Of a stretch of 64,000 bases of DNA, positions 40-61,614 are shown piece after piece; the stretch's first letter is position 1; each line of letters starts with the position of its first letter. This DNA is from Arbacia lixula. Taxonomy: Eukaryota > Echinodermata > Echinoidea > Arbacioida > Arbaciidae. Both the position numbers and the translations under genes were made by a program. Location: positions 22,004,392 through 22,068,391 of the forward strand of contig OZ022586.1 in NCBI GenBank assembly GCA_963669155.1, given 5' to 3'. The notes beneath the pieces were generated by a model. The model saw only the letters and a program-made list of their open reading frames with translations. It was not told where the DNA came from and made no database searches.

Positions 40-2700
40 CTCTCCCAGGTGTAAAACAAATTTAGAAACATTCGCACATAGTCCACATAACACATACCAT
101 CATAAATACAATTACACATATATGCACATGTCATGTATATAGCAATACTACCATGACTACTAAAAAGACGGAGACACTTAGTTTACTAGAGATATGTTTT
201 ATTGCCTCTTCTGTCCTTGTTTGCGGTCCTTCGCCAAATCAGTCAAGAATATACCAAGGTTTCTCCACCTTTTGTTGTTGCAATGTATATTTCGATAAAG
301 ATATTAAGGTGTCCATTATGCAATTTTGCGCTGACTAATCTTTCATTACTGTTACTATAGAATTGCGATAACATATATTTCAAGCCAAGAATTTCAATAA
401 TTAGACAAGGGTTGTGATGAATATTCATTGATGTATTATCTGGCATACGCGATTGATATGTCAATAAGACATTTCAAACATTGCTTAAGATGAACAAGAA
501 TTAACTGCTTTCCTAATATGGACAAGTATATAATGTATACACACACCTCACTCGTATCATGACGGCAAAGTAAACAAAATTGACTTGCTATATCAATCAA
601 AGATGCGCGTGTTTATGTAAATAGCGCTTAATATACAAGTATATACCCCAAAGGTCACGAACGTATTTTTTTCAAGCCAGATCATTATTATGATTGGGAA
701 ATGGTGATCGTCTGTAACTTCATGAAGCAGCACTGAGCAATGGCAATACAGCTGTTACTTTTTGTGGCTTATGATGAATGCAATTTCATAGAAAAAAGCA
801 CACAATAAACTGGCATAGTAGATTTTTACTGTAGAAAAAGGTGAATTACGCTAAACCATATGTATTATACACAACACACTATAAATGCAATAATCAATGT
901 ATAAACTGGTCATGCCAGGATTTGTACACTAGAGAAATGACAGATAAAAGTTTCTTTTTTGTCATTATCTGTGACAAAACCTACCTTGAAGCAATATAAG
1001 ACAATCAGTAGAACTTATAATGCACATGAATTTTGTATACTCATAAAAAGTAAACATTAATTTAATATTTAGCTATGTACTTTATCACAGGTGATACTAT
1101 TCAATATCTACCAGTCTAAGAAGACCAGCAGCATGTCTACATCATGCTGAAAATTTACAAATTTGTTTCCAGTTGCAGTAGCATGACCATCTGAAGTAAA
1201 AGTGTAGGCTTTCGAACATAATTTATAAAAGCATTAACGAATCACACTGAGCAATAGAAATCACATGCTCGATTTTGTAAATTGATGCAAAAGACAGCAA
1301 AAATACTCTAATACTTGTTAATACTTTATTTACAAGATGAGCAAGCCATCTAAGGTGAAAGCCATACAAAACATGGAACTTGAACATTCCTCCACAAAAC
1401 TGTGTTTAGATTTTTTTCTGTACAGGGCAGTTGTGTTATAGAAAAGTGGTACTCTTAGATAAAACGTTTGAGAGAAAAGAAGAAAAATAAAAGCGCAAAT
1501 CATCTGCTTCGAAGGCACCAGTACTATTAATAAAAAGGCACAGACATGATAACAAAACTATGAGAAGGGTGATTAAAGTACGTGTTAACATATCCGTAAT
1601 TTACTTGCGTGTGACTGTGTTTCAATTTACGCATGCGCTTTAGATCATCAAAGATAATATCCTCACACCTAACTTAAACATTTTTATGTGTAGATGGGGT
1701 TTTCTACCATCTCTGTGCAGTCCTCGTCATTGTCGTCGGTCACTTTCTTCTTTTTATCCGGCATGGCGTACAAGGCATCCGTGACCGGCGGCGTAGATTC
1801 CTGCGTGCGAGGCTCCATTGCCTTCGAGGCGCCATTGCGCATCACGTGACTCTTCTTCCGTTTGTCAGGCATTGCGTATAAATCGCCCAAGTCGGCGCCT
1901 TCTGGTTCGGGCCTGTGTTTTGTCGACACAGCGTATAAGGCGCTCAGATCCTCTTTGTCTTTCGCGAGTTCCATGTTAACCTGCGGTTCCTTGTTGACCA
2001 CTGCGTAATTGACGCAGTCCTCGTAAGGATGATGGGGGCTTGGTTCTCTTTTACCAAGTGTGCTATCCATAAGAATTTCATCGTAGTTATTCGCATCAAA
2101 CTTGTCAGGAGGCTGATCGGGGAGAGGCCCTTTGCTTGCCGCTCTACCATGTCTAGAGTAGATTGAATACAAAAAAGATCGGGTCAAAAAGGACATTGAC
2201 GGAGACTTATGAACAGAAAGAGTAAATAAGCACTGGAGGGTGAATGAGAAATAGAATGAAAGAGGGGGGGGGGAGGGGTGTGAACAATGTAAATAATTGA
2301 GAAATTCAAGATATAAGGTTTTATTCATTGTACTAATTGAACTAATAATGCATGGCTGGAATTACTATTAACAATGTTACCACTTCTACTACATTATTTT
2401 TATTGTTAAAACGGAATTCTAGAAGTACAACCATGTGAGCCATATACTGCGATAGCACTACTACAGTTTCTTTTTTCACCATCACAATTGCTTCAACTAG
2501 TACTACCACTTCACACGCGTATTTACGAATAATACCTCATCAAATACCTGCGTTTGTAAAGGACTACGACGACGATGATGACCACGAGGATGATCACGAT
2601 CACGGCAATCCCGCCACCTGCACCAGCTGCCACGCCTAGTTTTAAAGAGTATTTTGATGCAATTAATAGATTAAAAGTTGCAATCATTTATTCAAATTGA
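40..2700. repeat. Segmental duplication, copy 1 (3' end and flank of gene A)
   Basis: Near-identical, with scattered substitutions and small indels, to about 55314-57960. It covers the 3' flank, poly(A) signal, tail exon and TM exon of gene A. Bases 1-1683 hold no gene that I can support; the short frames there are also duplicated at the other copy and look like chance frames. The copy begins near ctctcccaggtgtaaaacaa. Confidence 0.85.
1325..1330 (-). terminator. Candidate poly(A) signal of gene A
   Basis: AATAAA on the minus strand, about 355 nt past the gene A stop. It lies in a block that is conserved downstream of gene E. Confidence 0.5.
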
Positions 2701-5700
2701 ATAGCTGCCTGGCGCCAACAATGTCCATTCTCTGTGAATGACGTAACTAAGCAAACTCTTTATCAATACGATATGATTGGTGATACCTGGCCAATGCAGC
2801 AGTCCTTCTGAAGACAACATAGACCTACGAGTTACATGATTAAGACAATACTTGTTATAAGTGTGTTCGTCTTTCAGGTGTTATCTTACCTAGGTTACTG
2901 GTGTTCCCTCCTGGCCTCGTGACAGTAGGAGTGGTAGACGAGAGGGTCGTATCATCTGGAGTTGTAGGGCCCGGCTCGTGTTTCTTTGATGTAAGGTCTG
3001 TAGCAATATTATGATTAATGATGATTATTAAGCAATATTACAAGTTCCAATATCCCATTTTTTAGACTTGTACTATTGTTACATCTAAATCCCACCGACC
3101 CTTGATATCAACAAGGGGAAATATTGACACCTCGTCAAACCAGCAGTCTCTCTGAATAGAGTCGGAAATCTGCCAGGGCACTGTCACACAAACATTTTGC
3201 GACTGATATCAATCGTAAATCTCTACATTAGAGTCATGAGATTGGACGTGCACTCACTTCAAATAAATCGCAACCCTTTATACGCTAGGGCCCAGTGTGA
3301 ACAGTTTCTGCTGCCTATTAACATGATTAAGAGAATGTTGGTTATAAGTGTGTTTTGCAGTATTTCAAGTGTTATCTTACCTAGGTTGCTAGTTTTCCCT
3401 ACTTGGTTTGGGCCAGTAGGAGTGTTAGAAGACACAGGCGTATCATCCGTAGTTGTAGATCCCACCTCGATAGTGTTCGATGTAAGGACTGTAGGTATTT
3501 GAATATGATAATCAGTAATTTATAAATATCAGGATCTCACACCCACCGCTTTCTTTAGCGTAGAGCATATGGGGCATTTGAATTGTCTAAAAAAATATAG
3601 CATGTACATGTATATATAACCAAAATAGACATTTAAGGTTATTTGGAGAGAAATGTATCACAGTGTAATCCTCAGCATGCCACCGTCGGTTTTCCTCACT
3701 ATTTTTTTCACACAAATCCCATACTACAGCAGTTTGTCTGACACACACCGGGTTGATAGAAATACCTGTCATATCGTCATCCTTATCTCTGGACACACAA
3801 ACTTTTTTTTTTTTTTTTTACATTTTATTGTAACAAAGTCGGAGGGAAAAAAAAACAAAACTCGGCATCAAGAAAATCCACACTAAATATCAAAGTGGAT
3901 ATGCTTGGAACACGATTTTAGTGAGGATGATTTTCCGGCCTGTAATAAATTTCCATAATGCGTATGGATGGCTTGTGTTCATTATGCTTTATCCCTTATT
4001 TTGTAATGACGTCTACGTTCATTATAAATACCTGAACTTGTATCAGCATCCTCAGTTGGCATGATAACGGTCTCAGGAGGTGTGACTGGCTGACTTCGTC
4101 CAGGAACTGAACAAATTGTGACATTTTATTTATGTTTACTTGTGGTATATACTGTTAACAATCATTCCTGAAACCCCCACAGTCATGTAAAGAACCTAAA
4201 TAATACCCCCCCCCAAAAAAAAAAAAATAAAAAAATAAAAAAAAAACTGAGCAAAATAGCATAACATTTTAAAGACAGCCAGTCCCTTTTTCAGATCACC
4301 ACAAAACCATCAAAACATTGGCAAAACATATAGAGAAGTGTTAGCAGGCTCTATATTCACAATTTGAAACTGATACGTAGTGTAAAATTCAAATAATGCA
4401 CGTAAACAACGTCTGATTAATAGTCTTTACCTCAGGCTCTTAGCAGTTTGTGTTGAAATATCTGCTTTATTGATTAATCTGTTTATTAAATTATAAAACG
4501 AATTATGAAAAAAAAATTGTTATATGGAAGGAATCATCTCCAAAGTTTGGTAGTTACTCATAAAATCAGGATTTCACACACACATAATAACCACATAGAT
4601 ACTGTAACAAAGACTAATACTTTTTTCGTAGTACGAAAAAAGTCGGTTTGAAATTTAACGGCTGAATTTTTTTACATATACAGAAAGCTTCAACATGCTA
4701 TATTCTTAGAAATGGTCTTGAATCACACTTTCTTCAATTTACGATCGTGATAGACGATTTCAAATTTTAAGCTTGCAAAAGGGACGGACAATCTTTAAAG
4801 AGATTTGGAGCAAAATAACTTAATAAGATAATAAAGATTATAAGCCAACTGATGCGCAATGAACTAATGTGCATAATATGCTAACATATCCAAAAATGTG
4901 AGTTTAAGCTTTGGTTTATTTTCGATCATTTTCAAACTTTACCCTTCTCAGAAAACGTAAACAATATTGATTTTTGTAATCCATATCAGCTACGACGGCT
5001 GTGTATAAATCACACAACAAATATGACTATATCATTACGTACTTTGAAATACTGCGATGTTATCAAGTCCGCCACATGAGCTATAGGCGTCCCCTGCACA
5101 TTGACCCTGGCAATCCTCATCTCCCTTCTTCGCTGCCCCGAGACGACTATAGTCTGCTCCTGCGACACCGCAGAAGCATTCATCCCCGTTCTCCACTCCA
5201 GCATAGACGTAGTCAGCCATGGTGGACTCTCTGCAGTGGCTGATGCATTTGTCGATTGTCATGTCGCTATTCTCTATCAGTGGATCACCGGGAAGCACAC
5301 GATCACTCGAATTATCCCTGTGGCATCCGAGATACGTATCGTCTGTAAAATGTAAACTAAAATCTTTAAGAGAACAGATGGAGGAACGCAGTAAAAGGAT
5401 TTTTTTTTAGAAAGAATGGGTGCAACTAACATGATAAGGATATAGGCCTACATATAATATGATAGTGCTTGTGAGTTCTCATTGACATCTCACGTATAAC
5501 TGATTCAGATTAAACTTTGTGTGCTAAATTAGACTTAATTCACAAGTAATGCACACAAATCGCATTTCTTCCGGATCTTCAAAATGTAACTTACTACGAC
5601 GAGCTGCCCTCAAAGAGAATCAAAAAGGTGGCGGGGGTAAGGGGGGGGGGGGGGAGGGGGTGGATGGGCGGGTTCCGACCTCTTCTCTCACACCTCCCTT

Positions 5701-7129
5701 TGAACATGGACTACTATGCTTTGACTATGCTAATGTGGTTGAAGGGCAGGGGATATGGTACGAAGCATTTGTGACTTACGCATGTTTCAAATGGATGTGT
5801 GCAACACATTTTACTTTGATATTAAAAGTTAATCTTCCTACCGTAACAGATTGCTGCTCCGATGCTTCCTGTTGGACAAAGGTTGTTGTCGGTGAGAGCA
5901 GACAGTTTACAGTCGCTGATATCACTGTCACCTGGTATGGTTGGGATGCAGAGTCAGTTAAATAGGGAAGACATACGAACCGCAATCTCTGTTTTTATAC
6001 ATGTGTGTGTGTGTGTGTGGGGGGGGGGGGGCAATCCAAACAAAACTAAACTAAACGAAATGGTTCAGCTCAATACAAACACACGCATATATACACAAAT
6101 GCAGATATAGCATATACGCAACCATTCACGTAACATCTTCAGAGACTGAGATAAATCGTGCGTTTATGTCCAGATCATTGCATTATTAATTTGTTTCGAC
6201 ATTTGTCCAACCGAAGGGCAAACAATTTGCACTTTGTTCATGACTTTCATTGTTTTCACTTATGTCTCTTGTTGATTTCGCTTGATATATAGTATTAAGT
6301 TTCAAAAGAAATCGAAGGACCTACTTACCTTCCTCGCAATCAAGATGTGACTTTGGTAGATCAAAGTCACTCCCGAAAGTGGAGTTAGCAATAGCCTTGT
6401 TGGTTCCATAGGCTCCGATATGTTGACAGACAACTCGAGCATCCTCGAAACCAAAGTAGACCCCACACGTCATCTTCCACGTGCCATTCTCTGTGGTGTA
6501 CTCCACGGTGCCTTCAAAGCTTGATGGGCCGTTCACAAGGCGGACGTCTGGGGTAAAAATAATAAATCTCATTAGACATTATTCAATCGTCTTTACCTAA
6601 AGCTTTTTCTACCAGTAGAGTATTCTGCGTATTGAACATGTTGAAAGTACACACTTGTGTTTTCTTAACACATCTTCTTCTTTATGTTCTTTGATCATAT
6701 TCATCGCTTTCATTATTACCTTATTGTCGGGCAGCGCATTCTCTTTGTTATTCACCCAAACACGGTCGTTGTTGTTACTACGTTACCGTCCATGTGTTTA
6801 AAGACGAAAGGAGTGGAATAAGCCAAGCGATATGTTTATCCGTGTTGTGGCTATTTCATTTATTTTTGTATTAGTTTCATTTATAGATATTTTATCTTTG
6901 TGCCATATGTGCCTTGTTCACAAGTTATTCACATGAATTCCATTTTTGATAGCAGCAGTTTATCTGGCAAACGGTTTAACATTCAATATATTATCATAAC
7001 TATGAGTAACTATTCGGTGTAGAACGAGGCAGTCGTGATCCAGGACTCACCTATTATCAAGCCTATAGATGGTATTGCGTTGTAGGTAACGAAGATGAAG
7101 ACGAGACAGGCCTGAAGTAGCACATCCAT
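1684..7129 (-). CDS. Gene A: SRCR-WSC single-pass receptor with multi-tyrosine tail (type-1)
   Basis: Nine exons by splice sites and phase: 7129-7051 signal peptide, 6547-6329 and 5931-5842 SRCR, 5342-5043 WSC, 4106-4032, 3488-3381 and 2997-2890 stalk, 2635-2548 TM, 2152-1684 tail. Sum 1536 nt, 511 aa, no internal stop. Start chosen at the ATG opening MDVLLQACLVFIFVTY, a clear signal peptide. SRCR (about residues 27-129) has six Cys over two exons, as in group A SRCR domains. WSC (about 130-229) has the usual Cys pattern (YLGC, CISHC, CFCG, CGG). The stalk (230-326) is rich in Ser/Thr/Pro. The TM (327-356) is a long Ile/Val run ending LYKRR. The tail has seven tyrosines: YDEI, YEDC, VNYAVV, YAVS, two YAMP and C-terminal NPIYT. 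SRCR and WSC are extracellular binding folds; WSC domains are linked to carbohydrate binding. A role in recognition and tyrosine-based signalling is inferred. Expression is unproven. Confidence 0.88.
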
Positions 7130-8919: not shown

Positions 8920-9162
8920 AACTATCAAAGCATTTATGAATATAAAACAAAGTTAGAGTTGGAGCAGAAATTGAAGACCTATGAAAACATTGTTCATGCG
9001 ATTGCTGTGGAATGCTTTGGTGTGAAGGTTTCTAATGATCATCAAAAGGCACGACCCAACAGGAGGATACTACGACTACAGGAGCTTAGAAGAGATCAAA
9101 GAAATTTGCGTAAGCGAATACGGAAAGCACCAGAGGAGGAGAAGCCTGTCTCCAAGATTTGA
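8920..9162 (+). CDS. N-terminal part of R2-group retrotransposon protein, separate frame
   Basis: An open frame of about 80 codons after a stop near 8917. It is Lys/Arg/Glu-rich (LRLQELRRDQRNLRKRIRKA) and ends in TGA at 9160-9162, just where the main polymerase frame begins. The basic segment that precedes the reverse transcriptase in this element type continues from this frame into the next, so a single-base frameshift probably splits the original protein. The zinc-finger/Myb N-terminus expected of the family is not visible. Confidence 0.55.
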   Translation, partial: NYQSIYEYKTKLELEQKLKTYENIVHAIAVECFGVKVSNDHQKARPNRRILRLQELRRDQRNLRKRIRKAPEEEKPVSKI

Positions 9163-11876
9163 GTGACAGGATCCACGCTGATGTTCTCACCATTCGAAAG
9201 AAGGAACGTGCCTGCAAGCGTAGGAGAGAAAGGAGGAAAGGAAGGAGCACCTTTATGCAGAATCCGTACAAATCTGCAAAATCGCTGTTAGAACCGGCTT
9301 GCAAGACGGAACTTAACTGCTCGAGAGAAGATTTGAATTTTCACCTGCGCAACACCTACTCATCTTTCTCAACTCAAACCTTTACTGCCTGGCAGGATGC
9401 AACTCCTCGCGATCCCCCCTCCGTCCCCTTTGTAGATGAAGCTCCGTCGTTCAGAGATGTTCGAGATATTCTACAGAAAACAAAGAACGGATCTTCGCCA
9501 GGCCAAAACGGTTTACCTTATAAGATGTACAAGAAATGCCCCCGCCTCCTTCGCCTTATCTGGAGTCTAATGCTAGTACATGTAGTGTGGCGGACGAAAA
9601 AGATTCCTGTGCAGTGGAGAGTGGCTGAAGGTGTGTACATCCCTAAATCCACTGCAGCTGATGGTACGGTAATCACTGATTTTCGTCCAATTTCGCTATT
9701 AAATGTGGAGGCAAAACTCTTCTTCGCCGTACTTGCAAAACGTTTGGAGAAGTATCTACGAGTCAACGAGTACCTAGACGTGACTGTACAGAAGGGAGGA
9801 ATACGTGGCCACTGTGGCGTATGGGAGCACATTTCTACCCTGTGGGAAACCATCAAGGACGCAAAATCTACCCAGAAGAATCTTGCAGTAATCTGGTTGG
9901 ATTTAGCCAATGCTTTTGGTTCTGTTCCTCATGAAGCAATTGCGTTCGCCTTGAAATGGTACCACATACCAGACACTACCATCGAACTTGTGAAGAATTA
10001 CTACGCCGGACTTTACGCAAGGTTTTCAGTGAAAGATTGGACATCTGACTGGCAGAAGTTTTCGATAGGAATCTTTATGGGCTGCACTCTGTCTCCGATC
10101 CTTTTCGTTGCCACTTTCAATTTGCTGAATGATTTCATCAGCGGACTTTCAGTTAAGCAATACAAGATGAAAAGCAAGGACATTGAGATTCCAATTATGA
10201 AGGAGTACATGGATGACATCAGGATTTGCACCGCTTCAGAAAAAGCCGCCGAGGTCGTTCTCAACAAAGTAAACGCATTCATGAAATGGAGCAAGATGAA
10301 AATCAAGCCTGCCAAGTCTAGATCCCTTATCCTGGAAAGAGGGAGAGTAAAACGAGAGGATCCCTTTTCCGTCGATGGACAGAAGATTCCAGGTGTTCAC
10401 ACGAAACCAATTAAATTTCTAGGACGCCTCATCGATGAGGATCTCAATGACAATGGGGCTCGTGTATCCATTGAGGAGAACTTGAATACCTGGCTTCGTC
10501 TCGTCAATAAGACCATGCTGACTGGAGCCATGAAATGCTGGATCTACGCCCATATCCTTGTCCCGAAGCTCCAATGGCAACTTCTCATCTATGACGTTCC
10601 CCTTTCCCACGTCGAGCGCACGGAGACGATGGTTGCCAAGTACCTGCGGAGATGGTTCGGCGTCAGCGTAAATCTCACATCTGTAGCACTCTTTTGTAAG
10701 CAGGCGAAGCTCAAACTTCCACTTGAGGGACCGACAGCACTGCTAAAAAGAGTTGCTGCAAATAGATGCATGCAGCTGCGTCAGAGCACCGACAGGGTCG
10801 TCAATGCAATCAAGCCGGTTGTCAACTGTGGACGTAAGTGGAAGGCAGAGGAGGCAATCGACAGAGCAGAATGCAGACTGAAGTTTGACGACATGGCCAG
10901 AGGGCAATTCGGACGCCAGGGAGTTGGAGCTTTGAATAGGAGACTGCCGGTCACGAAGCTCTCCAAAAGGGAGTTTAGGACTGAGGTGTGCAAAGTGGTC
11001 TCGGGAGAACATGACGACATCTACTACACCCGGGCTGTGCAGATGGGAGTACAAGGAGCGTGGACGGCGTGGGAGGCAGCAAAACAACGGAACATGACCT
11101 GGCGCACACTCTTGGATATGAGCCCCAAACTTTTGCAGTTTGTTGTTGGAACAACATACGGCACTGTAGCATCTCCAGCCAATCTAAAGAGATGGAAGCT
11201 GAGCCAAGAAGACAGCTGCTCCCTGTGTGCTGAAAGATGCACGACTACGCATGTGTTGGCGGGCTGCCCCACGAGTCTTCGACAAGGTAGATACACGTGG
11301 AGACATAATCGTGTGCTCAGTGTTTTATCAAATGCCAATCAAGCTCATTTGACAGCTCACAACAAGAGACGAGATCAACCAGTTCGTTTTCCCCGGATTG
11401 ATTTCGTAAGAGAGGGTGACAAGCCAAAGCGGCGGATCAATGGCAAAACCATTTCCAACTTCGTTTCAAGGAGCTCCGACTGGAAAATGGTTGCAGACTT
11501 GGAGAAGACGTTGGTGTTTCCAGAGGAAATCCTGGCTACGACATTACGACCAGATATTGTCATTTGGTCGTCATCAACCAAGACGATTGCGGCGGTAGAA
11601 TTAACCGTTCCCGACGAAGGAAATATGCAGAGGGCTCACGAGAGGAAGCTTCTCAAGTACGAAGAACTACAACGGCAGTGTGAAGAGCGAGGGTGGACAA
11701 CGTCAATCTGGCCAGTGGAAGTAGGTTGCAGAGGCTTCGCTTCACACTCCCTCTACTCGGTACTTCCTCGTCTCGGAATAGGACAGAGAGCAGCACGAGA
11801 TACAGAAAGGTCCGCTGGCTGCATCGCGGAGAAGTCTTCGTTCAATATCTGGTTGAGACGGAATGACCAAACATGA
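9159..11876 (+). CDS. R2-group non-LTR retrotransposon: reverse transcriptase plus restriction-like endonuclease
   Basis: 905 codons without a stop. The frame is open from 9114; the first listed codon is TTG, so the true start is uncertain. The reverse transcriptase has GSSPGQNGLPYK, DFRPISLLNVEAK, motif A LDLANAFGS (about residue 247), motif B GIFMGCTLSP and motif C YMDD (about 350). Then follow a CCHC finger CSLC-x7-H-x4-C (from about 687) and a PD-(D/E)xK type nuclease with RPDIVIW (797) and VELTVPDE. This order (RT, CCHC, nuclease) is that of the R2/R4/NeSL/Hero group; I cannot settle the clade. It acts by target-primed reverse transcription. It lies on the + strand, opposite to the receptor genes and between A and B. 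The long intact frame suggests a fairly recent insertion. Confidence 0.85.
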   Translation: MSDRIHADVLTIRKKERACKRRRERRKGRSTFMQNPYKSAKSLLEPACKTELNCSREDLNFHLRNTYSSFSTQTFTAWQDATPRDPPSVPFVDEAPSFRDVRDILQKTKNGSSPGQNGLPYKMYKKCPRLLRLIWSLMLVHVVWRTKKIPVQWRVAEGVYIPKSTAADGTVITDFRPISLLNVEAKLFFAVLAKRLEKYLRVNEYLDVTVQKGGIRGHCGVWEHISTLWETIKDAKSTQKNLAVIWLDLANAFGSVPHEAIAFALKWYHIPDTTIELVKNYYAGLYARFSVKDWTSDWQKFSIGIFMGCTLSPILFVATFNLLNDFISGLSVKQYKMKSKDIEIPIMKEYMDDIRICTASEKAAEVVLNKVNAFMKWSKMKIKPAKSRSLILERGRVKREDPFSVDGQKIPGVHTKPIKFLGRLIDEDLNDNGARVSIEENLNTWLRLVNKTMLTGAMKCWIYAHILVPKLQWQLLIYDVPLSHVERTETMVAKYLRRWFGVSVNLTSVALFCKQAKLKLPLEGPTALLKRVAANRCMQLRQSTDRVVNAIKPVVNCGRKWKAEEAIDRAECRLKFDDMARGQFGRQGVGALNRRLPVTKLSKREFRTEVCKVVSGEHDDIYYTRAVQMGVQGAWTAWEAAKQRNMTWRTLLDMSPKLLQFVVGTTYGTVASPANLKRWKLSQEDSCSLCAERCTTTHVLAGCPTSLRQGRYTWRHNRVLSVLSNANQAHLTAHNKRRDQPVRFPRIDFVREGDKPKRRINGKTISNFVSRSSDWKMVADLEKTLVFPEEILATTLRPDIVIWSSSTKTIAAVELTVPDEGNMQRAHERKLLKYEELQRQCEERGWTTSIWPVEVGCRGFASHSLYSVLPRLGIGQRAARDTERSAGCIAEKSSFNIWLRRNDQT

Positions 11877-13145: not shown

Positions 13146-13352
13146 TACAACACTTTAATATTATGACCATTTGGGGCAATATTTGTTTACGTTTGATCTT
13201 TAACCTTAAAAATATATAAACTAATCAACATATTGCTTTGGCTGCAAGAATTCGAGGCAGCTCTTACTCTGAAGCAAATCCGTGAAATAGAATATCCAAC
13301 ATTGAGGAACCAGCTTGTATATATGAAAAAAAGATGCGTCTGTAATTTGTTT

Positions 13353-14874: not shown

Positions 14875-14930
<56 letters not shown>

Positions 14931-46580: not shown

Positions 46581-46625
<45 letters not shown>

Positions 46626-49600: not shown

Positions 49601-52600
49601 ACGTAAACAAGATTGATATTGTTAATCCAAAGCAGCTACGACGACTGTGTATAAACTAAACACAACAAAAAAGTAAGAAGTAAGTATAAAAATATCATTA
49701 CGTACTTTTAAATACCGCGATGTAACCATTTCCGCCACATGAGCTGTAGGCGTCCCCTGTACATGGAGTCTGGCAATCGGCATCTTCCGCTGGCCCGATC
49801 CGACTGTAGTCTGCTCCTGCGACACCACAGTAGCATTCCTTTCCGTACTCCAGTCCAGCATAGACGTAGTCAGCCATGGTGGACTCTCTGCAGTGGCTGA
49901 TGCATTTATCGATTGTCACGGTGGTATCCCATATCAGTGGATCACCGGTTGGAACGTAATCGCCTCTTTCATCCTCGTAGCATCCCAGGTAAGTCTCATC
50001 TGTAAAATGTAAAAACAAAAATGGACATTTGAACGGAGTTAGGAACGTAGTGATTGGACATGATGGGGAATGAATAGATACGACTAAGGTTATACAAATT
50101 TTATGAAAGTGCGCACCGACATCATTGGTAATAATTGATTATCGATTGTCGTGGCGTCAAAAGTATCACTAAGGATGTAAAAAAAAAAAAAATCTGCTCC
50201 CAGATCTACAAAATATTCCAAAAGATTTGGTGAGAGAAACAAAGCTTCGCCCCCCCCCCCCCCCATCACCCCTCCTTCTCCCCCACCAGGTCTAGGCTAA
50301 TGAGAGCTAGTGTAGATTGGGTTGATGAGGTAAGAAATGTTTGTGAGTTTGCTGTAATCGACGAAAATAATTCATATCTCAAAAGATATCCTTCCTACCG
50401 TAGCAAATTGCTGCTCCGATGAATGTCGAACAAGCGCTGCTGGACACCAGCTGACACTCACGGATAGCTGTGTCACCTGTTAAGGATGCGGAGTCAATTC
50501 AATTCAATTCAATTCAATTCTTTATTCATTTAACAAAACTTTCATGAACAATGCGTATAAGGCATCACCATAAAAGCCAATTGCTTGTGAGATGTGATAA
50601 CCTTTAACATGTGGTTCAAAACACATAAGTATAAAGTCCATTATTTAAATGACATACAGTGTGAGAACCCAAGTACACGAATTAAATAAAATACATACTT
50701 AAAAAAACCCATATATCAAAGGGAGACTAATACAAGCAAATACAAACGAAACAAAAAAAAACAAAAAACGAAAGAACCCCCCCCCCCCCCAAAAAAAAAA
50801 ACAGACAAAACAAACACAAAAACAAACACAAACGAATATTTAACGGCTAAGACAATAATCAACAGAGTAAACAATATGTAATATCAAAATGTCGAAGTAT
50901 AATGCGGCTATGTATACCTCCATATATGTATACCCCTCCACACGCCCCGAGGGCAACTCGAATTACAACAAAATATGTGACTACGCACCACCAAAGCAAG
51001 GTCGAAAAACCTCCGCGTGCTCAATCATTTCAATAGTATGAGTGAGTTCATAAATTTGTTGCGGAGGAAAATTTCCCTGCGACCTGCCAAAGTTGTATGC
51101 ACGATCAAGCTACTTGCTCTTGGGTGCGTCGCAGTATCACAACTATCCACAACCCTGACTTTTCACCATAAAGAGCGTGAGGCTCTAAAATGAATAGTAC
51201 TTAATTAACTATATGTGTTAAAAAAACACCAAGAAGCTCGCTCTTTATGATCAAACACAAATGTGGCATAGAATACGAAACGCAGGATAGAGAATATAGC
51301 ACCGAAGTGGTGACGCCACATGAGCATGTTGTCGAGACAAACTGCTCAAACTCACTACAGTGAGAGGCTTAGCGGTCCAATAATATTGTTTATTGGTTTA
51401 GTGTCGGGCAATCCCTATCACAGCTCCCTCTGTGATAACCGCCGTTTGCTCGATCCGCATAGTTTAGAACCAGTTGTCCCGGCAACTATGCTCAAACGAC
51501 GTCACACCTCGGCACTCCATATCACGCACTAAAAAATTATCATTAGTAAGTTATTACTAATAAAGAGACGGGAAGTGTTTTTTTAATTGGCTTTTGAAGT
51601 TACTGATAGAATTAAGATTTTTTTTATATTTGAATCAAAAGAGTTCCAAAATTTCGCTTCTTTAACATGTTTAAACTGGATAGAATTTGATTGTGTTAGA
51701 TGCAAGCGACAGAACGGCAGGACAACATTATCACTTTTACGAGTATTAAAAGTATGGGTTTGGGAATATCGTACAAAATAATCTGTAAAAACATGTGGCA
51801 ATAACCCATTTAGAAATTTGATAACAAAAACTCCGAGTTTGAACGCAATGCGACCATGAATAGTTAGAGTATGTACTTCTTTGAAAAGTGGAATATACAT
51901 GGAAACATACGGGTAGTGGGGAGAGAATGTGGAGAAGAAGCCAAAATGAACTCCTATTTGTCCGTTCAATTAAAAAAGACAAAACAAATACCTACACATT
52001 ATTTCTACACGAACATACACCCATACATACATATCATGCACTCACTTATGAAACTTAATTAAATATTGCGTTGTATCATGTTGTCGCGCCCTGTTGATTA
52101 CATCTGTCTTGAAGAATACGCACAGAGTATAATCTACATGCTTTTCATTAGTCCAGATACTGGCCGTATTTTATCGTCCGCCTCTTCTCCCACACACATT
52201 ACGCCACTGATTCACATAGTACGCACACCGCGCCAGACCACTGATTGCGCGACTCCACGAATCCGTCCGCCCGAGAAAAATGGGAGGTTATTCCATAATT
52301 TGGGTGCCGTATTTGCAAAAGCTCTATCACCGTATGTCTTAGAATTTCAGAGAGAAGATTTTTTGATTGAAAACGAAGATTACGAGTAGGCTGGTATGGT
52401 TTGATGAGTTCAGTAAGGTAGACAGGAGCATTTCCACATAAGCATTTGAATACAAGAGTGAGGATTTTAAACTGAACACGAGCCCTTTCGGGAGCCAATG
52501 GAGACTACGTAGGATCGGAGTTATATGTTCAAATATCCTTTTTCGCGTTACAAGCCTTGCCGCTGAATTCTGTACACGTTGGAGTTTATTTAGTTGAGTC

Positions 52601-53608
52601 TCAGAGATTCCCAGAAACATACCATCATTGAAATCTAAGTAACTAAATATAAATGCGTGAACAAGCCTCTCTGTGGTCGCTTTATCCAAAAAATGTCTTA
52701 TCTTCCCAATTCTATGTAGTCCCATGGCAGCCGACTTACAAATATTATCAATGTGAGTGTTCATACGCAGATCATTCTAGACAATACATACATCCTGGAC
52801 ATACATACACATTACGATACCTACCTTCCAAGCAGGCTAGAATTGTAGTTGGTGGTCCCAGTTCACTCCCGAAAGGCGAGTTAGTAATAGCCCTGTTAGT
52901 TCCATTGGCTCCGATGTGTTCACAGACAAGTCTAGCATCGTCGAAATCAAAGTTGACCCCACACGTCGTCTGCCACGTGTTATTATCTGTGGTGAACTCC
53001 ACGGTGCCTTCATAGCGTGATGGGCCGTTCACAAGGCGGACGTCTGAGGTAAAAATAACAAGTATCATTACATGTACAACATTGCATGAATGAACAATTC
53101 AAAGTCCTTGCTTCTCATATTACAACTGGTGCAGTACCTATCAGCAGAATACCTAACGTACTGAGTGGAAGCGAATATTCTGTTTTTCTTCTGCATCTTT
53201 CTTGTAATATTTTATGTAATATTCTCCGTCGAGCTCTATATATTTTTTATTTTGGAAAGCCCGATAAAGCCCCTCCTCTTACCGCGTCACGCTCTGTATT
53301 CAGAGCCGATGAGAGGGGTGCGGGGAGAGGTTTTTTTTTTTTTTTTTTTTTTTTTTTGGGGGGGGGGGGCAAGCAGTATGATTATACACAATGTGGTGAC
53401 AGGTCATTGTTTGTCACCTGTAATGCACACAAATCCCATAGAGCAGCAGTTTATCTGACACATAAAGGTTCACAATTCACAATACTATAATCACTGCAAC
53501 TAGACCAGCATAATCGTCTCAGAACTCACCTACGACCATGCCACCAGATAGTAATGGAGTGATGGTAGCTACAAGCAAGACGAACCAGACAAGAAACAGA
53601 GCATCCAT
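45884..53608 (-). CDS. Gene D: SRCR-WSC single-pass receptor with type-1 tail
   Basis: Nine exons: 53608-53530 signal peptide (MDALFLVWFVLLVATITP), 53043-52825 and 50476-50399 SRCR, 49999-49706 WSC, 49338-49264, 48509-48402 and 48006-47899 stalk, 46795-46708 TM, 46352-45884 tail. Sum 1518 nt, 505 aa, in frame. The WSC exon is 6 nt shorter than in A, and the segment after the first Cys differs most (YEDERGDYVPTGDP). The tail keeps YEDC, VNYAVV, YAVS, two YAMP and NPIYT, but the first site is SDEI instead of YDEI, so it has six tyrosines. The SRCR-a/SRCR-b intron holds two LINE fragments, and other introns hold two further insertions. None touches an exon or a splice site that I can see. A 1.6-kb insertion in the 3' flank moves the usual poly(A) signal away. 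Confidence 0.87.
46577..46635. repeat. (ACT)n microsatellite in the gene D TM-tail intron
   Basis: A run of ctactacta units, absent from the same intron of A and E, where only single ctact copies remain. Confidence 0.9.
46946..47785. mobile_element. Insertion of unknown class in the gene D TM-stalk intron
   Basis: The intron matches A and E up to ggtga and again from ggtgatatctgg, so about 840 bp was inserted with a likely 5-bp duplication (ggtga). The 92-codon + frame at 47242-47520 has no recognisable domain. Confidence 0.5.
48562..49120. mobile_element. Insertion of unknown class in a gene D stalk intron
   Basis: Compared with the same introns of A and E, this block is extra. It shares a 60-bp stretch with 39530-39590 and has a locally GC-rich part near 48640-48790. 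No frame or repeat end allows a class. Confidence 0.45.
50497..51897 (-). mobile_element. LINE 3' end with (GAATT)n tail in the gene D intron
   Basis: The intron matches those of genes C and E (ggatgcggagtca, then tggaaacatac) with this block inserted. It ends on its 3' side in a (TTCAA)n repeat on the + strand. The minus-strand frame 51969-51583 has LLPHVFTDYFVRYSQTHTFN and WNSFDSNIKK, typical of the C-terminal end of LINE polymerase proteins. It is 5'-truncated. Any target duplication is only about 2 bp. The 3' part has no long frame. Confidence 0.75.
52281..52788 (-). mobile_element. CR1-like LINE fragment in the gene D intron
   Basis: The minus strand encodes ATTERLVHAFIFSYLDFNDG, QLNKLQRVQNSAARLVTRK and LRSLHWLP, related to the copies in B and C but at a different intron position (between SRCR-a and SRCR-b). 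It is truncated at both ends and frameshifted. Confidence 0.78.
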
Positions 53609-55313: not shown

Positions 55314-57960
55314 GCACTCTCCCAGGTGTAAAACAAATTTAGAAACATTCGCACATAGTCCACATAACACATACCATCATAAATACAATTACACATATAT
55401 CATGTATATGCACATGTCATGTATATAGCAATACTACCATGACTACTGCAAAGATAAAAAGACGGAGACACTTAGTTTACTAGAGATATGTTTTATTGCC
55501 TCTTCTGTCCTTGTTTGCGGTCCTTTGCCGAATCAGTCAAGAATATACCAAGGTTTCTCCACCTTTTGTTGTTGCAATGTATACTTCGATAACGATATTA
55601 AGGTGTCCATTATGCAATTTTGCGCTGAATAATCTTTCATTTCTGTTACTATAGAATTGCGATAACAAATATTTCAAGCCAAGAATTTCAATAATTAGAC
55701 AAGGGTTGTGATGAATATTCATTGATGTATTATCTGGCATACGCGATTGATATGTCAATAAGACATTTCAAACATTGCTTAAGATGAACAAGAATTAACT
55801 GCTTTCCTAATATGGAAAAGTATATAATGTATACACACACCTCACTCGTATCATGACGGCAAAGTAGACAAAATTGACTTGCTATATCAATCAAAGATGC
55901 GCGTGTTGTATGTAAATAGCGCTTAATATAGAAGTATATACCCCAAAGGTCACGAATGTATTTTTTTTCAAGCCAGATCATTAATATGATTGGGAAATTG
56001 TGATCGTCTGTAACTGAATGAAGCAGCACTGAGCAATGGCAATACAGCTGTTACTTTTTGTGGCTTATGATGAATGCAATTTCATAGAAAAAAAAACACA
56101 CAATAAACTGGCATCGTGGATTTTTACTGTCGAAAAAGGTAAATTACGCTAAACCATAAGTATTATACACAACACACTATAAATGCAATAATCAATGTAT
56201 AAACTGGTCATGCCAGGATTTGTACACTAGATAAATGACAGATAAAAGTTTCTTTTTTGTCATTATCTGTGACAAAACCTACCTTGAAACAATATAAGAC
56301 AACCAGTAGAACTTATAATATACATGACTTTTGTATACTCATAAAAAGTAAACATTAATTTAATATTTAGCTATGTACTTTATCACTGGTGATACTATTA
56401 AATATTTTCCAGTATAAGAAAACCAGCAGCATGTCTACATTATGCTGAAAATTTACAAATTTGTTTCCAGTTGCAGTAGCATGACCATCTGAAGTAAAAG
56501 TGTAGGCTTTCGAACATAATTTATAAAAGCATTAACGAATCACACTGAGCAATAGAAATCGCATGCTCGATTTTGTAAATTGATGCAAAAGACAGCTCAA
56601 AATTACTCTTTCCTTTATTTACAAGATGAGCAAGCCATCTAAGGTGAAATCCATACAAAACATGGAACATGAACATTCCTACACAAAACTGTGTTTAGAT
56701 TTTTTTTTCTGTACAGGGCAGTTGTGTTATAGAAAAGTGGTACTCTTAGATAAAACATTTGAGAGAAAAGAAGAAAAATAAAAGCGCAAATCATCTGCTT
56801 CGAAGGCACCAGTACGATTAATTAAAAGGCACAGACATGATAACAAAACTATAAGAAGGGTGATTTAAGTACGTGTTAACATATCCGTCAATTTACTTGC
56901 GTGTGACTGTGTTTCAATTTACGCATGCGCTTTAGATCATCAAAGGAAATATCCTCACATCTAACTTAAACATTTTTATGTGTAGATGGGGTTTTCTACC
57001 ATCTCTGTGCAGTCCTCGTCGTTGTCGTCGGTCACTTTCTTCTTTTTATCCGGCATGGCGTACAAGGCATCCATGCCCGGCGGCGTAGACGCCAGCGTGC
57101 TAGGCTCCATTGCCTTCGAGGCGCCATTGCGCATCACGTGACTCTTCTTCCGTTTGTCAGGCATTGCGTATAAATCGCCCAAGTCGGCGCCTTCTGGTTC
57201 GGGCCTGTGTTTTGTCGACACAGCGTATAAGGCGCTCAGATCCTCTTTGTCTTTCGCGAGTTCCATGTTAACCTGCGGTTCCTTATTGACCACTGCGTAA
57301 TTGACGCAGTCCTCGTAAGGATAATGGGGGCTTGGTTCTCCTTTACCAAGAGTGCTATTCATGAGAATTTCATCGTAGTTATTCGCATCAAACTTGTCAG
57401 GAGGCTGATCGGGGAGAGGCCCTTTCCTTGCGGCTCTACCATGTCTAGAGTAGATTGAATACAAAAAAAGATCGGGTAAAAAAAAAAAGGACATTGGCGG
57501 AGACTTATGAACAGAGAGAGTAAAAAAGCACAGGAGGGAGAATGAGAAATAGAAAGAAAGGGGGGGGGTGAACAATGGAAATAATAGAGAAATTCAAAAT
57601 ATAAGGTTTTATTCATTGTACTAATTGAACTAATAATGCATGGCTGGAATTACTAATAACAATGTTACCACTTCTACTACATCGTTTCTATTGTTAAAAC
57701 GGAATTCTAGAAGTACAACCATGTGAGCCACTTACTGCGATAGCACTACTACAGTTTCTTTTTTCACCATTACAATTGATTCTACTAGTACTACCACTTC
57801 ACACGCGTATTTACGAATGATACCTCATCAAATACCTGCGTTTGTAAAGGACTACGACGACGATGATGACCACAAGGATGATCACGATCACAGCAACCCC
57901 GCCACCTGCACCAGCTGCCACGCCTCGTTTAGAAAAGCATAACATTACATTCTATTAATA
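55314..57960. repeat. Segmental duplication, copy 2 (3' end and flank of gene E)
   Basis: Partner of about 40-2700, in the same orientation. It covers the tail and TM exons of gene E and about 1.6 kb of 3' flank. I see no separate gene in 55314-56975. Confidence 0.85.
56614..56619 (-). terminator. Candidate poly(A) signal of gene E
   Basis: AATAAA on the minus strand at the same homologous place as in gene A, about 360 nt past the stop. Confidence 0.5.
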
Positions 57961-60900
57961 GACTAAAAGTTGCAATCATTTATTCAAATTCAACAACTGT
58001 CTGGCGCCAACAATGTCCATTCTCTGTGAATGACGTAACTAAGCAAATTCTTTATTAATACGATTATGATTGGTGATACCTGGCTAATGTAACAGTCCTT
58101 CTGAAGACAACATAGACCTAAGAGTTACATGATTAAGACAATACTTGTTATAAGTGTGTTTTGGCGGGATTTCAGGTGATATCTTACCTAGGTTGCTGGT
58201 GTTCCCCACTAGCCTCGTGACAGCAAGAGTGTTAGAAGACAGGGTCGTATCAACCGTAGTTGTAGATCCCACCACGATAGTGTTCGATGTAACGACTGTA
58301 GCTGTTTAATCATGATGAACAATGATTTATAACTATTACGAGCTGTTACCCACCGCTTTCGTTATCGTAGGGCATATGAGGCATTTGAATTACTCCCGAA
58401 AAAAAGACTTAAGATGTATAACCAAATTACACATTTAAACACAATTGCATCACATTGTAACCCTCAGCATGCCACTATCAGATTTGTTCATAAACACACA
58501 AATCCCATAGTGCAGCAGTTTGTGTGACACACACAGGGCTGAAAGAAACACCTGTCATATCATCATCTTCATCGCTGGCCACGAGAGGTGTTTTTTGAAA
58601 CATTTTATTGCAACAAAAATGGAGGGAAATACCCTCTGCATCAAGAACAAATCCACACTGAATGTCATAGTTGACATACTTTAAGCACGATTCTAGTGAG
58701 GATGATTTTCCGGCCTGTAATTAATTTTATATTCGTATGGATGGCTTGTGTTCATTATGCTTTATACCTTGTTTTGTAATGTTTAAGTTCGTTTTAAATA
58801 CCTGAACTTGTATCAGCATTCTCAGTTGTCACGATAGCGGTCCTAGGAGATGTGACTGGCTGGCTCGACTCAGGAACTGAACAAATTGTGAGATTTGATT
58901 AATATTTATTTGCGGTGTACAAGCATATATTCCTGAAACCTTCACAGTCTGGCCTGTAATATTTGTATAAATAGCTTCTGTTAATTTTGCTTCACATCAT
59001 GTTTTGTTATAACGTTAACGTTAAGTATAAATACCTGAAATTATATCAAGATCATCAGTTGTCACGATTGTGTGGTGTTGGGAGTTGTCACTGGCTGACT
59101 CGATTCAAGAATTGAACCATTGGAGACATAAATTATTTTTATTTGATTAATATTTTCTCTCGGTGAGCTGTTAAAAATCGCAGATTCACGAAAAATTTAA
59201 AATCATACAATTAATCAGCGATCGCCATAACTGCTACAATTGACTATTGTCCACGTACTATGAGAAATGTAAGACTTGAAAAAAATGTTAGTATTCACAT
59301 TTAGCGACACGTTAACATGCAGAATAGAAAATAGTTCCTTGAAATCAATTGGCTTATAACCCTCATCACGAAATCTCGGGATATATTATTACGTACTTTG
59401 AAATACTGCGATGTATCCATCTCCACCACATGAACTATGGGCGTCCCCTGTACATGGAGTCTGGCAATTACCATCACCATTCTCCGCTGCCCCGTCGCGA
59501 CTGTAGTCTGCTCCTGCGACACCACAGTAGCATTCCTTCCCGTACTCCACTCCAGCATAGACGTAGTCAGCCATGGTGGACTCTCTGCAGTGAGTGATGC
59601 ATTTGTCGATTGTCATGGCGCTATCCTCTGTCAGTGGATCACCAAGTAGCACGCGAGTGTTATTCACATTATCTTCATTATCCACATAACAACCCAGGTA
59701 GGTCTCATCTGTAAAATGTGAAACAAAATGGATATTAGAACTGAGTTAGGAACGCAGTGAATGGACATCATGGAGAATAAATAGGTACGAATTAGGTTAT
59801 AAAAATGATATGAAAGTGCTCACCGACATCATTGATCATTGATATAATCATTTTGTTTCCGTTAATTTCACTTCTTTTGGAATCGAAAGTGACACTATGT
59901 CATGTATGTGTGTCAAGATGATTGCTACCGGAAATATCCCTTGTGCTGACAAACTCCACCCCAAAAGCATATTAGGGGAGAGGGGCAGAGCTTCACCCCC
60001 CCCCCCCCCCCCTTTTCCCACTTGGGCTACGCTAATGGGCCCGAGTGCGGATTGGGATGATGAGATAAGATATATTTCTGATTTATGCACGTTTTTAATG
60101 GCTGTAGTCGACAAAAATAGTTTGTATCTACAAAAATATCCTTCCTACCGTAACAAATTGCTGCTCCGATGTCTGTTGTCGAGCAAGAGTACAACAGAGG
60201 ACACTCACCAATAGCTGTGTTACCTGTTAAGGATGCGGAGTCATGGAAACATACGAATAGTCATCTTTAAATGTGCGTGTGTTGGGAAGGGGAGGTGGAG
60301 GGGCAGCCAAAACGAAGCCCTTTTGGTCCGTTCAATCAAAAATAAATGCAAATAAACACATTCTTTCCACACGAGCATACAAACATACATGCATAGCATG
60401 CACTCATTCATACGTGTATGAAACAAAGATTGGGTTTAACCCTGTTGTCGAGCCCTCGTTGATTACATCTGTCTTGAAGTATACGCACCAGGTATAATGC
60501 ACGTACCTTCGGTTGGTTGTGTGAGGATACTTCCAAAAGGAATTCAGATTGCCACCCCCCCCCCCCCTTTAATCAAAAACTCAAAGGGAATTGTAAGATG
60601 AGCTTGTTATAACATTACAATGGTAATGAAGGAAGGGATGTTAGGCATGTTTTGAGGGGCACAAATATCTGGCAGATAACAATTGTGGTTGGTGGATCAA
60701 ATGGTACCATCGATTTAACTACTGTGCTGGCAAAATCAGATACGCATGTTTGTTTACACTATGATGATAAACTCACATTTTTGTTATTACGAGTCCCACG
60801 GGGACATGTCCGTGAGGTTAAAGGATATTTGAATAGCAGACATATCTTGAACGACATACATACACATTACGATCATATACCTACCTTCCATGCAGTGGAG

Positions 60901-61614
60901 AAGTGTAGTGGGTAGTCCCAGTTTACTCCCGAAAGGTGAGTCAGTAATGGCTTTGTTAGTTCCATTGGCTCCGATGTGTTCACAGACAAGTCGAGCATCG
61001 TAGAAATCAAAGTTGATCCCACACGTTGTCTGCCACGTGTTATTATCTGTGGTGTACTCCACGGTGCCTTCATAGCGTGATGGGCCGTTCACAAGGCGGA
61101 CGTCTGGGGGAAAAAGTAACAAGTATCATTAGATATACAACATTGAATGCATTAATAAATGATTGCTTCTAATATTACATGAATATTTAGCGTACTAAAT
61201 GGGAGCGAATATTTTGTTTTTACCTGCATCTTTCTTATGATCATTTTATATTCGCTGTCGCTGTCGTTTTGATTTTGAAAAGCTCGATACCGCTTCTCCT
61301 CTTACCACGTCACCCTCTGTGTATTTAGAGACTAAGAAATGTGTGCTGGGAAGGGGTGGGGGGGGGGGGGGGGGCTAGAGGCAAAGCAGTATGATTATAC
61401 ACAATGTGGTGATATGTTAACCCTTGTAATGCACACAAATCCCATAGAGCAGCAGTTTATCTGACAAATAAAGGTTAACCATTCACAATACTGTAATCAC
61501 TGTAACTAGACCAACATAATTGTCTCAGAACTCACCTACTACCATATCGCCAGATAGCAATGGAGTGAAGGTAGCTACAAGCAAAACGAACCAAAATTGA
61601 AACAGGGCATCCAT
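56976..61614 (-). CDS. Gene E: SRCR-WSC single-pass receptor with type-1 tail, short stalk
   Basis: Eight exons: 61614-61536 signal peptide (MDALFQFWFVLLVATFTP), 61103-60885 and 60223-60149 SRCR, 59708-59397 WSC, 58876-58802 and 58295-58188 stalk, 57923-57836 TM, 57444-56976 tail. Sum 1425 nt, 474 aa, in frame. The WSC exon is the longest of the five (312 nt) because of extra residues after the first Cys (YVDNEDNVNNTRVLLGDP). One of the two 108-nt stalk exons present in A and D is missing. A decayed copy of the 75-nt stalk exon lies at 59111-59035. The tail is almost the same as in A: YDEI, YEDC, VNYAVV, YAVS, two YAMP and NPIYT, plus one extra Tyr next to YEDC, eight in all. The tail and 3' flank lie in a recent duplication shared with gene A. 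Confidence 0.87.
59035..59111 (-). pseudogene. Decayed 75-nt stalk exon in gene E
   Basis: It resembles the 75-nt stalk exon (58802-58876) lying 160 bp away, with the SSQPVT-like start and a GTATTTAT donor. It is 77 nt long, so out of frame, and its acceptor AG is AA. It is probably skipped. Confidence 0.6.
59900..60890. repeat. Duplicated block shared by genes C and E, copy 2
   Basis: Partner of 36985-38000, in the same orientation. It shares the gcttcaccccc poly-C run, the tccgttcaat stretch and the ccttcggttggttgtgtgag intron segment. Confidence 0.8.

Follow-up and report, generated by a model that had tools for sequence, protein, structure and literature searches.

What kind of receptor do five neighboring genes in the sea urchin Arbacia lixula encode, and are its recognition and signaling parts inherited together? 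The window (the whole stretch of 64,000 nucleotides that was analyzed, C11:22004392-22068391) had been predicted to carry, on one strand, five genes that combine an SRCR domain, a WSC domain, a Ser/Thr stalk, one transmembrane (TM) segment and a tyrosine-rich tail. All five were located as head-to-tail minus-strand units, named A (highest coordinates, 5'-most) through E, reaching from the start of gene A exon 1 at 61614 to the stop codon of gene E at 1684. Our analysis suggests, with a probability of roughly 60%, that they belong to a family of germline phosphotyrosine recognition receptors that would resemble paired receptors and whose tails have been reassigned by recombination. The SRCR-WSC architecture and the presence of two tails, which rest on reconstructed genes, are very probable.

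Genes A, B, D and E share one plan: signal peptide, SRCR, WSC, Ser/Thr stalk, one TM segment and tail. As predicted, splice-site reconstruction yielded complete frames for these four, giving proteins of 476 (A), 505 (B), 423 (D) and 511 (E) amino acids from 8 exons in A and 9 in each of the others, which have one more stalk exon than A. All introns are GT-AG and in phase 1, except for a phase-2 intron before the tail exon; the seven introns of gene A lie within a span of exons running from 61614 to 56976. In all four complete genes the SRCR domain occupies two exons, the arrangement that defines group A SRCR domains, and contains six cysteines, and the WSC domain is encoded by one exon with eight cysteines. 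Pfam analysis recovered both predicted domains in every case: PF01822 (WSC) scored 60.3-62.1 bits in 4/4 proteins (cut-off 27.8), while PF00530 (SRCR) exceeded its 26.1-bit cut-off in three (33.2, 34.9 and 41.2) and fell marginally below it in gene D (25.7). Apart from the signal peptide, hydropathy analysis gave a single strong TM peak (gene E was scanned without exon 1). The possibility that gene E lacks a first exon was rejected: a tblastn search with exon 1 of gene A missed it, but a diverged 79-nucleotide, phase-1 signal exon lies at the syntenic place (7129-7051), and 100 shuffles of the region produced a mean of 0.01 candidates of the same length and 0.24 of any length. Gene C is broken by insertions in its SRCR exon (638 bp, with 15-bp terminal inverted repeats and an AAT target duplication) and its WSC exon (~7.4 kb, between the two copies of a directly duplicated 30-bp sequence, which differ at one position). 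The TM and tail exons of C retain open reading frames, and in U6, a near relative of C at C11:21.76 Mb, the SRCR exon is uninterrupted. By their predicted anatomy, these proteins are cell-surface receptors. The features, in window coordinates, are:

61536-61614, minus: gene A exon 1, signal peptide (MDALFQFWFVLLVATFTPLLSG...)
60885-61103, minus: gene A SRCR exon a
60149-60223, minus: gene A SRCR exon b
59397-59708, minus: gene A WSC exon
58802-58876, minus: gene A stalk exon 1
58188-58301, minus: gene A stalk exon 2
57836-57923, minus: gene A TM exon, class 1
56976-57444, minus: gene A tail exon, class 1 (VNYAVV, two YAMP, NPIY)
53530-53608, minus: gene B exon 1, signal peptide
52825-53043, minus: gene B SRCR exon a
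50399-50476, minus: gene B SRCR exon b
49706-49999, minus: gene B WSC exon
49264-49338, minus: gene B stalk exon 1
48402-48509, minus: gene B stalk exon 2
47899-48006, minus: gene B stalk exon 3
46708-46795, minus: gene B TM exon, class 1
45884-46352, minus: gene B tail exon, class 1
42295-42430, minus: lone SRCR exon relic with stop, upstream of gene C
40259-40337, minus: gene C exon 1, signal peptide
38767-38829, minus: gene C SRCR exon a, 5' piece
38129-38766, no strand: gene C SRCR-exon insertion, 638 bp
37970-38128, minus: gene C SRCR exon a, 3' piece (3' end approximate)
37238-37312, minus: gene C SRCR exon b
36775-36848, minus: gene C WSC exon, 5' piece
29332-36774, no strand: gene C WSC-exon insertion, ~7.4 kb
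29076-29331, minus: gene C WSC exon, 3' piece
28426-28507, minus: gene C WSC exon 3' stub, 5' junction of putative class-2 cassette
24821-24902, minus: gene C TM exon, class 2
23934-24222, minus: gene C tail exon, class 2, open
23554-23710, minus: dead class-1 tail-end relic, downstream of gene C class-2 tail
19493-19571, minus: gene D exon 1, signal peptide
18939-19157, minus: gene D SRCR exon a
18556-18633, minus: gene D SRCR exon b
17627-17926, minus: gene D WSC exon
17154-17228, minus: gene D stalk exon 1
16994-17062, minus: gene D WSC exon 3' stub, 5' junction of putative class-2 cassette
15890-15979, minus: gene D stalk exon 2 (putative class-2 cassette)
14735-14794, minus: gene D stalk exon 3 (putative class-2 cassette)
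14248-14329, minus: gene D TM exon, class 2
13353-13641, minus: gene D tail exon, class 2 (YTDL, YQDL, YVNQ, YEDF)
13023-13147, minus: dead class-1 tail-end relic, downstream of gene D class-2 tail
7051-7129, minus: gene E exon 1, diverged signal peptide
6329-6547, minus: gene E SRCR exon a
5842-5931, minus: gene E SRCR exon b
5043-5342, minus: gene E WSC exon
4032-4106, minus: gene E stalk exon 1
3381-3488, minus: gene E stalk exon 2
2890-2997, minus: gene E stalk exon 3
2548-2635, minus: gene E TM exon, class 1
1684-2152, minus: gene E tail exon, class 1, ends at stop

The tails are tyrosine-rich, as the original prediction held, but they are not one common tail: those of A, B and E are unrelated to those of C and D. 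Class 1 (A, B, E) consists of a shared TM exon and a 156-amino-acid tail with the motifs [VI]NYAVV, YAVS, two YAMPDK (YxxP) and a C-terminal NPIYT. Class 2 (C, D) has a different TM exon and a tail of 95-96 amino acids with YTDLDI, YQDLL, YVNQQ and YEDFV. No meaningful blastp similarity was found between the two (best E value 2.1). Motifs were counted in 17 of 72 tail loci, 9 of class 1 and 8 of class 2. [VI]NYAVV, the two YxxP motifs and NPIY were present in 9/9 class-1 tails examined, YVNQ and YQDL in 8/8 class-2 tails and YTDL in 7/8. We take YVNQ to be a Grb2-type YxN motif, YAMP a Crk/Nck-type YxxP motif and NPIY a PTB-type NPxY motif. Furthermore, [VI]NYAVV fits the consensus for an immunoreceptor tyrosine-based inhibitory motif (ITIM) given in PMC8211107.

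The five genes are members of a much larger array. We searched the 607-Mb genome (590 contigs, among them C11, C12, C14 and C22); ~315 kb of the 2.1-Mb array, the window included, and a few 3-kb loci were read as sequence and the remainder as match tables, from which all genome counts are lower bounds. At least 75 family SRCR exon loci lie at C11:21.66-23.73 Mb (best 150 of 623 candidates scored), 68 on the minus strand and 7 on the plus strand; five are partial, one of these with a stop. Three further family-like SRCR exons fall outside the array (C22:6.62 Mb, C11:14.64 Mb and C11:14.68 Mb), and all remaining SRCR matches among those 150 are at most 47% identical. The array interval also holds at least 68 strong WSC exons at 56.8 bits or more (best 150 of 173 candidates scored; six rows of lower score in the interval, 36.9-54.8 bits, are excluded) and at least 72 tail loci, some partial: 41 of class 1 and 31 of class 2. 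The 41 class-1 loci derive from 49 rows after four split pairs were merged and four short relics left out; 27 rows are full length without stops, and 49/49 class-1 rows listed genome-wide fall in the array interval. The array is arranged in blocks, with no family exons at ~22.56-22.87 and ~23.13-23.50 Mb, and, since C11 is 23,786,446 bases long, ends ~61 kb from the end of the contig. Local duplication, loss and decay, which had been proposed for the window, are borne out by this ~2.1-Mb array, by broken gene C and by the partial units.

We then compared the ancestry of ectodomains and tails, using 17 units in which SRCR and tail class were known (9 of class 1, 8 of class 2) and 16 in which the WSC exon could be paired with a tail class (9 and 7). 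The WSC of U10 (C11 near 21840874), in which a short segment of the exon is inverted, was left out of the WSC trees, and no tail label was assigned to U9 (no ectodomain available, with a 5-kb N run upstream of its tail) or to U12 and U13 (no tail available). On the SRCR tree the tail label changes six times, compared to a mean of 5.9 for shuffled labels, with 349/500 shuffles as low; on the WSC tree it also changes six times, compared to 5.5 (424/500). A single class-2 ectodomain clade was rejected by the approximately unbiased test (p-AU 0.0058 for SRCR and 7e-7 for WSC), and was again rejected when U14 and U15 were omitted (0.022 and 5e-5). Along the minus strand, 61 tails (34 of class 1, 27 of class 2) form 32 runs versus a shuffled mean of 31.0, a count that omits plus-strand units, tailless units and any class-1 locus that is partial or split. 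Within the window, A and E are 92.5% identical over the 3' 2.3 kb, introns included, but ~82% identical in the block of the first SRCR exon and 80-86% identical in WSC, and gene C is a mosaic whose SRCR exon b is 97% like that of A and whose 3' part is 90% like that of D. Judged by these trees, tail class does not track ectodomain ancestry.

The junctions of the class-2 module indicate how it arrived. In C and D, class-1 homology ends in the intron after stalk exon 1, and the sequence directly beyond it matches a WSC exon at its 3' end (17062-16994 in D). Past the class-2 stop, homology to class 1 returns within a class-1 tail exon (13147 in D) whose end is frameshifted. The junctions at both ends are common to C and D. 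The WSC stub was found in 7/9 class-2 units whose sequence at this junction is known (C, D, U4, U5, U6, U10 and L007, the last counted as class 2 from match tables) and in 0/9 class-1 units. Similarly, a class-1 tail relic lies behind 9/11 class-2 tails whose downstream sequence is known: C, D, U4, U5, U6, U9, U10 and L010 by blastn and U15 by match table. As read from these scars, the class-2 module in most copies examined is a cassette that came from a different WSC gene and was grafted into one of class 1. The cassette (WSC end, stalk, TM, tail and 3' untranslated region) would have replaced the matching part of its host and then multiplied. One graft probably lies behind the scarred copies, a judgment that we lowered from very probable after two unscarred units were found. 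Among the 38 class-2 tail matches listed, 31 are in the array, one (75% identical) is on C22 adjoining family SRCR and WSC exons, and six (34-47%) lie elsewhere on C11, C12 and C14. Three of these six have a same-strand WSC match upstream within ~5 kb, indicating that WSC genes with class-2-like tails form a dispersed family; class 2 may possibly be the older tail. Because the tail label is scattered on the trees and most class-2 copies share scars, ectodomains and tails appear to have been recombined repeatedly.

These observations allow a working model to be outlined. The array comprises roughly seventy germline-encoded single-pass receptors, A-E being five of them. Their common ectodomain (a two-exon group A SRCR, one WSC and a Ser/Thr stalk) carries one or the other of two TM-tail modules that share no homology. 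Gene conversion or non-allelic recombination would keep shifting ectodomain parts relative to tail parts. Ligand binding would lead Src-family kinases to phosphorylate tail tyrosines. In class 1, [VI]NYAVV could then engage SH2 phosphatases, YxxP its adaptors, and the terminal NPIY either PTB or endocytic proteins; in class 2, YVNQ could engage Grb2-type adaptors, and YTDL and YQDL other SH2 proteins. With such class-specific recruitment, one recognition surface might, like those of paired immune receptors, be coupled to restraint or uptake in one gene and to a promoting outcome in another. The chances that the family serves immune or non-self recognition are about even, and the proposal that its two tails carry opposite signs is a tentative one.

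Substitution patterns bear on what the ectodomain might recognize. Pairwise ratios of nonsynonymous to synonymous substitution (dN/dS) among the four complete genes were 0.15-0.33 for the signal exon (A, B, D), 0.55-0.76 for SRCR, 0.38-0.54 for WSC, 0.38-0.51 for the class-1 tail, 0.43-1.21 for the short stalk exon and 0.20-1.00 for the TM exon. Across 17 units, SRCR codons 29-36, which form the loop after the exon's first Cys, and codons 54-70 each had a ratio of 0.79, compared to 0.31 for the other codons of the exon; four loop codons, chosen after variation was seen, reached 1.29. In the four window genes alone, codons 1-43 ranged from 0.41 to 2.96, with 4/6 pairs above 1 at a very low dS of 0.05-0.11, and codons 44-73 ranged from 0.40 to 1.08. 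WSC was constrained (0.46 over 16 units). In SALSA, D1019 and D1020 are cation-site residues, mutation of either of which alone abolished ligand binding, and a dual cation site (D1019, D1020, E1086) has been proposed as general for SRCR domains (PMC7043408). All 19 SRCR exons examined have Gly at the position of Asp1019 followed by a variable residue, so that the dual cation-binding site of group A lacks its first Asp throughout; in U14 the preceding Cys is lost as well. The Asp pair is absent from some CD163 repeats too, and the change therefore points to a different likely binding mode rather than to exclusion from the family. The cited case in which the same face is used without calcium is CD6-CD166.

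Several results weigh against the paired-receptor-like reading. The idea that tyrosine columns of the tails are invariant significantly more often than the other tail columns was rejected for class 1 (6/7 tyrosine columns versus 95/147, p = 0.24) and class 2 (4/4 versus 55/91, p = 0.14). A canonical immunoreceptor tyrosine-based activation motif (ITAM), in which 6-12 residues separate the YxxL units, was rejected for class 2, where the units are 15 residues apart, and no charged residue lies inside the TM segment of either class. SLYQDL, present in 4/8 class-2 tails, fits the ITIM consensus too, which makes the split between the tail classes less clean. The family shares with paired receptors related ectodomains on two unrelated TM-tail modules in one cluster (41 and 31 loci) and one tail type with an ITIM consensus (all nine class-1 tails examined), but has neither the charged TM residue nor the ITAM of an activating partner, and for these reasons an activating role is the part of the model for class 2 that we trust least. 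Because unscarred units exist, the graft leaves some class-2 copies unaccounted for. The WSC stub was not found in U14 and U15, on the distal side of the array, and the class-1 relic is not behind the tail of U14 or the second class-2 tail in L035; the proposition that every class-2 unit carries both scars was accordingly rejected (U14 has neither and U15 no stub). U14 and U15 may be donors, products of a second graft or copies whose scars were lost. When they are omitted, the tail label changes four times on both trees, compared to shuffled means of 5.0 (SRCR, 121/500 shuffles as low) and 4.4 (WSC, 255/500), so weak clustering on SRCR is possible, and the trees derive from short exons, with 2/16 and 3/15 inner branches starred. 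Fast evolution, another predicted property, holds for the two SRCR patches relative to their surroundings. However, resampling over the 17 units gave no SRCR codon set with supported dN>dS, and proven positive selection on the patches was rejected. Finally, some array copies may be assembly or haplotype duplicates that inflate the copy number.

Other explanations account for parts of these data. The array could be an expanded SRCR scavenger or endocytic family in which class 1 serves uptake through NPIY and the existence of two tails reflects accidents of history rather than opposed signaling. Scavenger SRCR domains bind polyanions, the genome is SRCR-rich (924 first-look candidates with a whole-genome SRCR model, best 150 scored) and NPIY is C-terminal in all nine class-1 tails examined. 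However, uptake requires neither YVNQ nor ITIM-like motifs, and the invariant Gly occupies a position at which mutation abolished ligand binding by SALSA (PMC7043408); we consider this explanation unlikely. Alternatively, WSC could be the main ligand domain of carbohydrate or fungal-glucan sensors. WSC domains are tied to glycan binding, with SiWsc3 binding beta-1,3-glucan (cited in PMC9024836), and WSC is constrained here. The SiWsc3 site, however, is apparently formed by three WSC domains together, compared to one in these genes, and human Kremen, which bears a WSC domain, acts in protein complexes (PMC9024836), leaving this account improbable.

Drift could also have expanded developmental or adhesion receptors at an unstable contig end, with many copies decaying. 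The proximity of the array to the end of the contig, the broken gene C, the several partial units and the unsupported dN/dS above 1 would all fit, but internal stops are absent from most of the array rows tabulated as matches, and SRCR codons outside the patches are constrained (0.31); such an origin is improbable as well. Least expected is a system of allorecognition or self-recognition receptors read by polymorphic copies, like the Alr family of Hydractinia or the fester co-receptors of Botryllus. Those are clustered type I receptors with ITIM/hemITAM tails (PMC12065747, PMC11999971), and mixing across the array would yield individual barcodes; their immunoglobulin (Ig) ectodomains, however, are unrelated to SRCR-WSC, and we think this very unlikely.

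Phosphotyrosine recognition receptors with reassigned tails, the reading that we prefer, have partial parallels in known systems. CD5 and CD6 similarly have an SRCR ectodomain, one TM segment and a long cytoplasmic tail with signaling tyrosines, but contain three SRCR domains and no WSC, form no array and have one tail type each. KIR and LILR are clustered genes with similar ectodomains and dissimilar tails, one of which has an ITIM; they differ in their Ig domains and in activating members that pair a charged TM segment with an adaptor. That the array, at one end of a chromosome-scale contig, is an independent invertebrate counterpart of the KIR and LILR complexes is conceivable but doubtful; recombination in the germline would then reassort variable ectodomains with at least two tails, any recognition surface could be switched between activation and restraint or uptake, and individuals would have their own recognition-to-response maps. 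Kremen (Kringle-WSC-CUB) is also a type I membrane protein with a WSC domain, matched in the PDB by the WSC here (E ~1e-8), but it lacks SRCR, is encoded by single genes and functions in the Wnt pathway. The amphioxus receptor BbLcLRR, the strongest experimental precedent, shares a WSC ectodomain, one TM segment and an ITIM-like phosphotyrosine tail: its ITIM-like tyrosines are phosphorylated by Lck and inhibit signaling in Jurkat cells, it binds SHIP1 and SHP1/2 after stimulation, and it is expressed in the gut and raised by immune stimulants (PMC8211107). By contrast with the array, it has leucine-rich repeats in place of SRCR and is described as a single receptor with one tail (PMC8211107). 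Botryllus FcoR and Hydractinia Alr are likewise invertebrate receptor clusters with ITIM/hemITAM tails, but their ectodomains are Ig or Ig-sushi, and in Botryllus motifs can be swapped by splicing (PMC12065747, PMC11999971), whereas the exchange in this array took place at the genomic level, from gene to gene.

Whether the receptor type is unfamiliar, as the original prediction had it, depends on the level considered. In Strongylocentrotus purpuratus, SRCR genes are mostly tandem (253/359) and group A SRCR-rich genes are expanded; 36 WSC domains were counted within sea urchin SRCR genes, and in P. australis WSC is among the main SRCR partner domains (Peng et al. 2024, PMC10855680). These big, mainly tandem SRCR families with WSC inside SRCR genes resemble the A. 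lixula array, although in the featured sea urchin cluster SRCR is encoded by a single exon in all but one gene rather than by two exons as here (PMC10855680). The pairing of SRCR and WSC is therefore not new in principle. The parts of that study's text that were consulted, as distinct from its supplementary tables, describe no SRCR-WSC-TM-tail architecture, alternative tails or tail exchange. Our literature search, which lay outside supplementary tables and most subscription papers, found no single-pass SRCR-WSC architecture with two interchangeable tails, graft scars and array-wide uncoupling. Protein searches were uninformative on novelty because SRCR is a huge animal family and the collection searched is seemingly poor in animal proteins: the whole gene A protein had 7 matches among 7999 scored candidates, all with WSC and none with SRCR by Pfam (the three named are fungal), the tail region had 178 candidates, none at E<=0.1, and the SRCR region of gene B had 50, none at E<=10.

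Additional features of the array and its surroundings were noted. Eight class-1 tail loci (for example 22553695 and 22109658) begin near residue 34 with their first 33 residues unmatched, and may represent a third tail type. Four SRCR+WSC units, in which neither known tail was found (C11:23518242, 23657154, 23706932 and 23725390), possibly reflect gaps or a further tail type. Class-2 units without a WSC stub lie on the array's distal side in L034 (C11:22.868 Mb) and L035 (C11:23.536 Mb). SRCR-WSC units outside the array (C22:6624826-6631171; C11:14.64 and 14.68 Mb, the latter with a class-2-like tail at 34%; and C11:6.26 Mb in L012) are possible founders or escapes. A second cluster, of weaker WSC matches, lies at C11:20.2-21.6 Mb and is 32% identical to gene A in L033; a WSC-bearing frame of 1804 amino acids at C11:20.77 Mb was rejected as real, being mostly a run of N. 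Lone SRCR exon fragments without the remaining gene, some with a gap or stop, occur upstream of units at 42295-42430 in the window and at C11:21.676, 21.772 and 21.788 Mb. In the window, TACCACA-like minisatellites (29470-29831 and 35834-36208) lie close to either end of the 7.4-kb insertion that breaks the WSC exon of gene C, and a hairpin at 31928-32139 has 94-nucleotide arms, 97% complementary, spaced by 24 nucleotides. Between D and E, an open plus-strand frame of 920 amino acids (9114-11876) with a reverse transcriptase domain (PF00078, E 4.9e-24) is an element of the non-long-terminal-repeat type. A 72-nucleotide tRNA-like sequence on the minus strand (22225-22296, anticodon TCA, Rfam tRNA 60.9 bits) lies mostly within a 173-bp repeat present in two copies at 97% (the other at 22509-22680), and has the appearance of a tRNA-derived repeat, not of a selenocysteine tRNA gene.

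Invertebrate receptor expansions are usually characterized by their ectodomains. Here, an array shows the sensing part uncoupled from the tail, and most class-2 copies bear scars that reveal how a second tail joined genes that already had the first. The array would provide a candidate receptor system for which docking of SH2 and PTB proteins is explicitly predicted, and it makes testable the long-standing question of how innate receptor families alter the sign or kind of a response without altering recognition.

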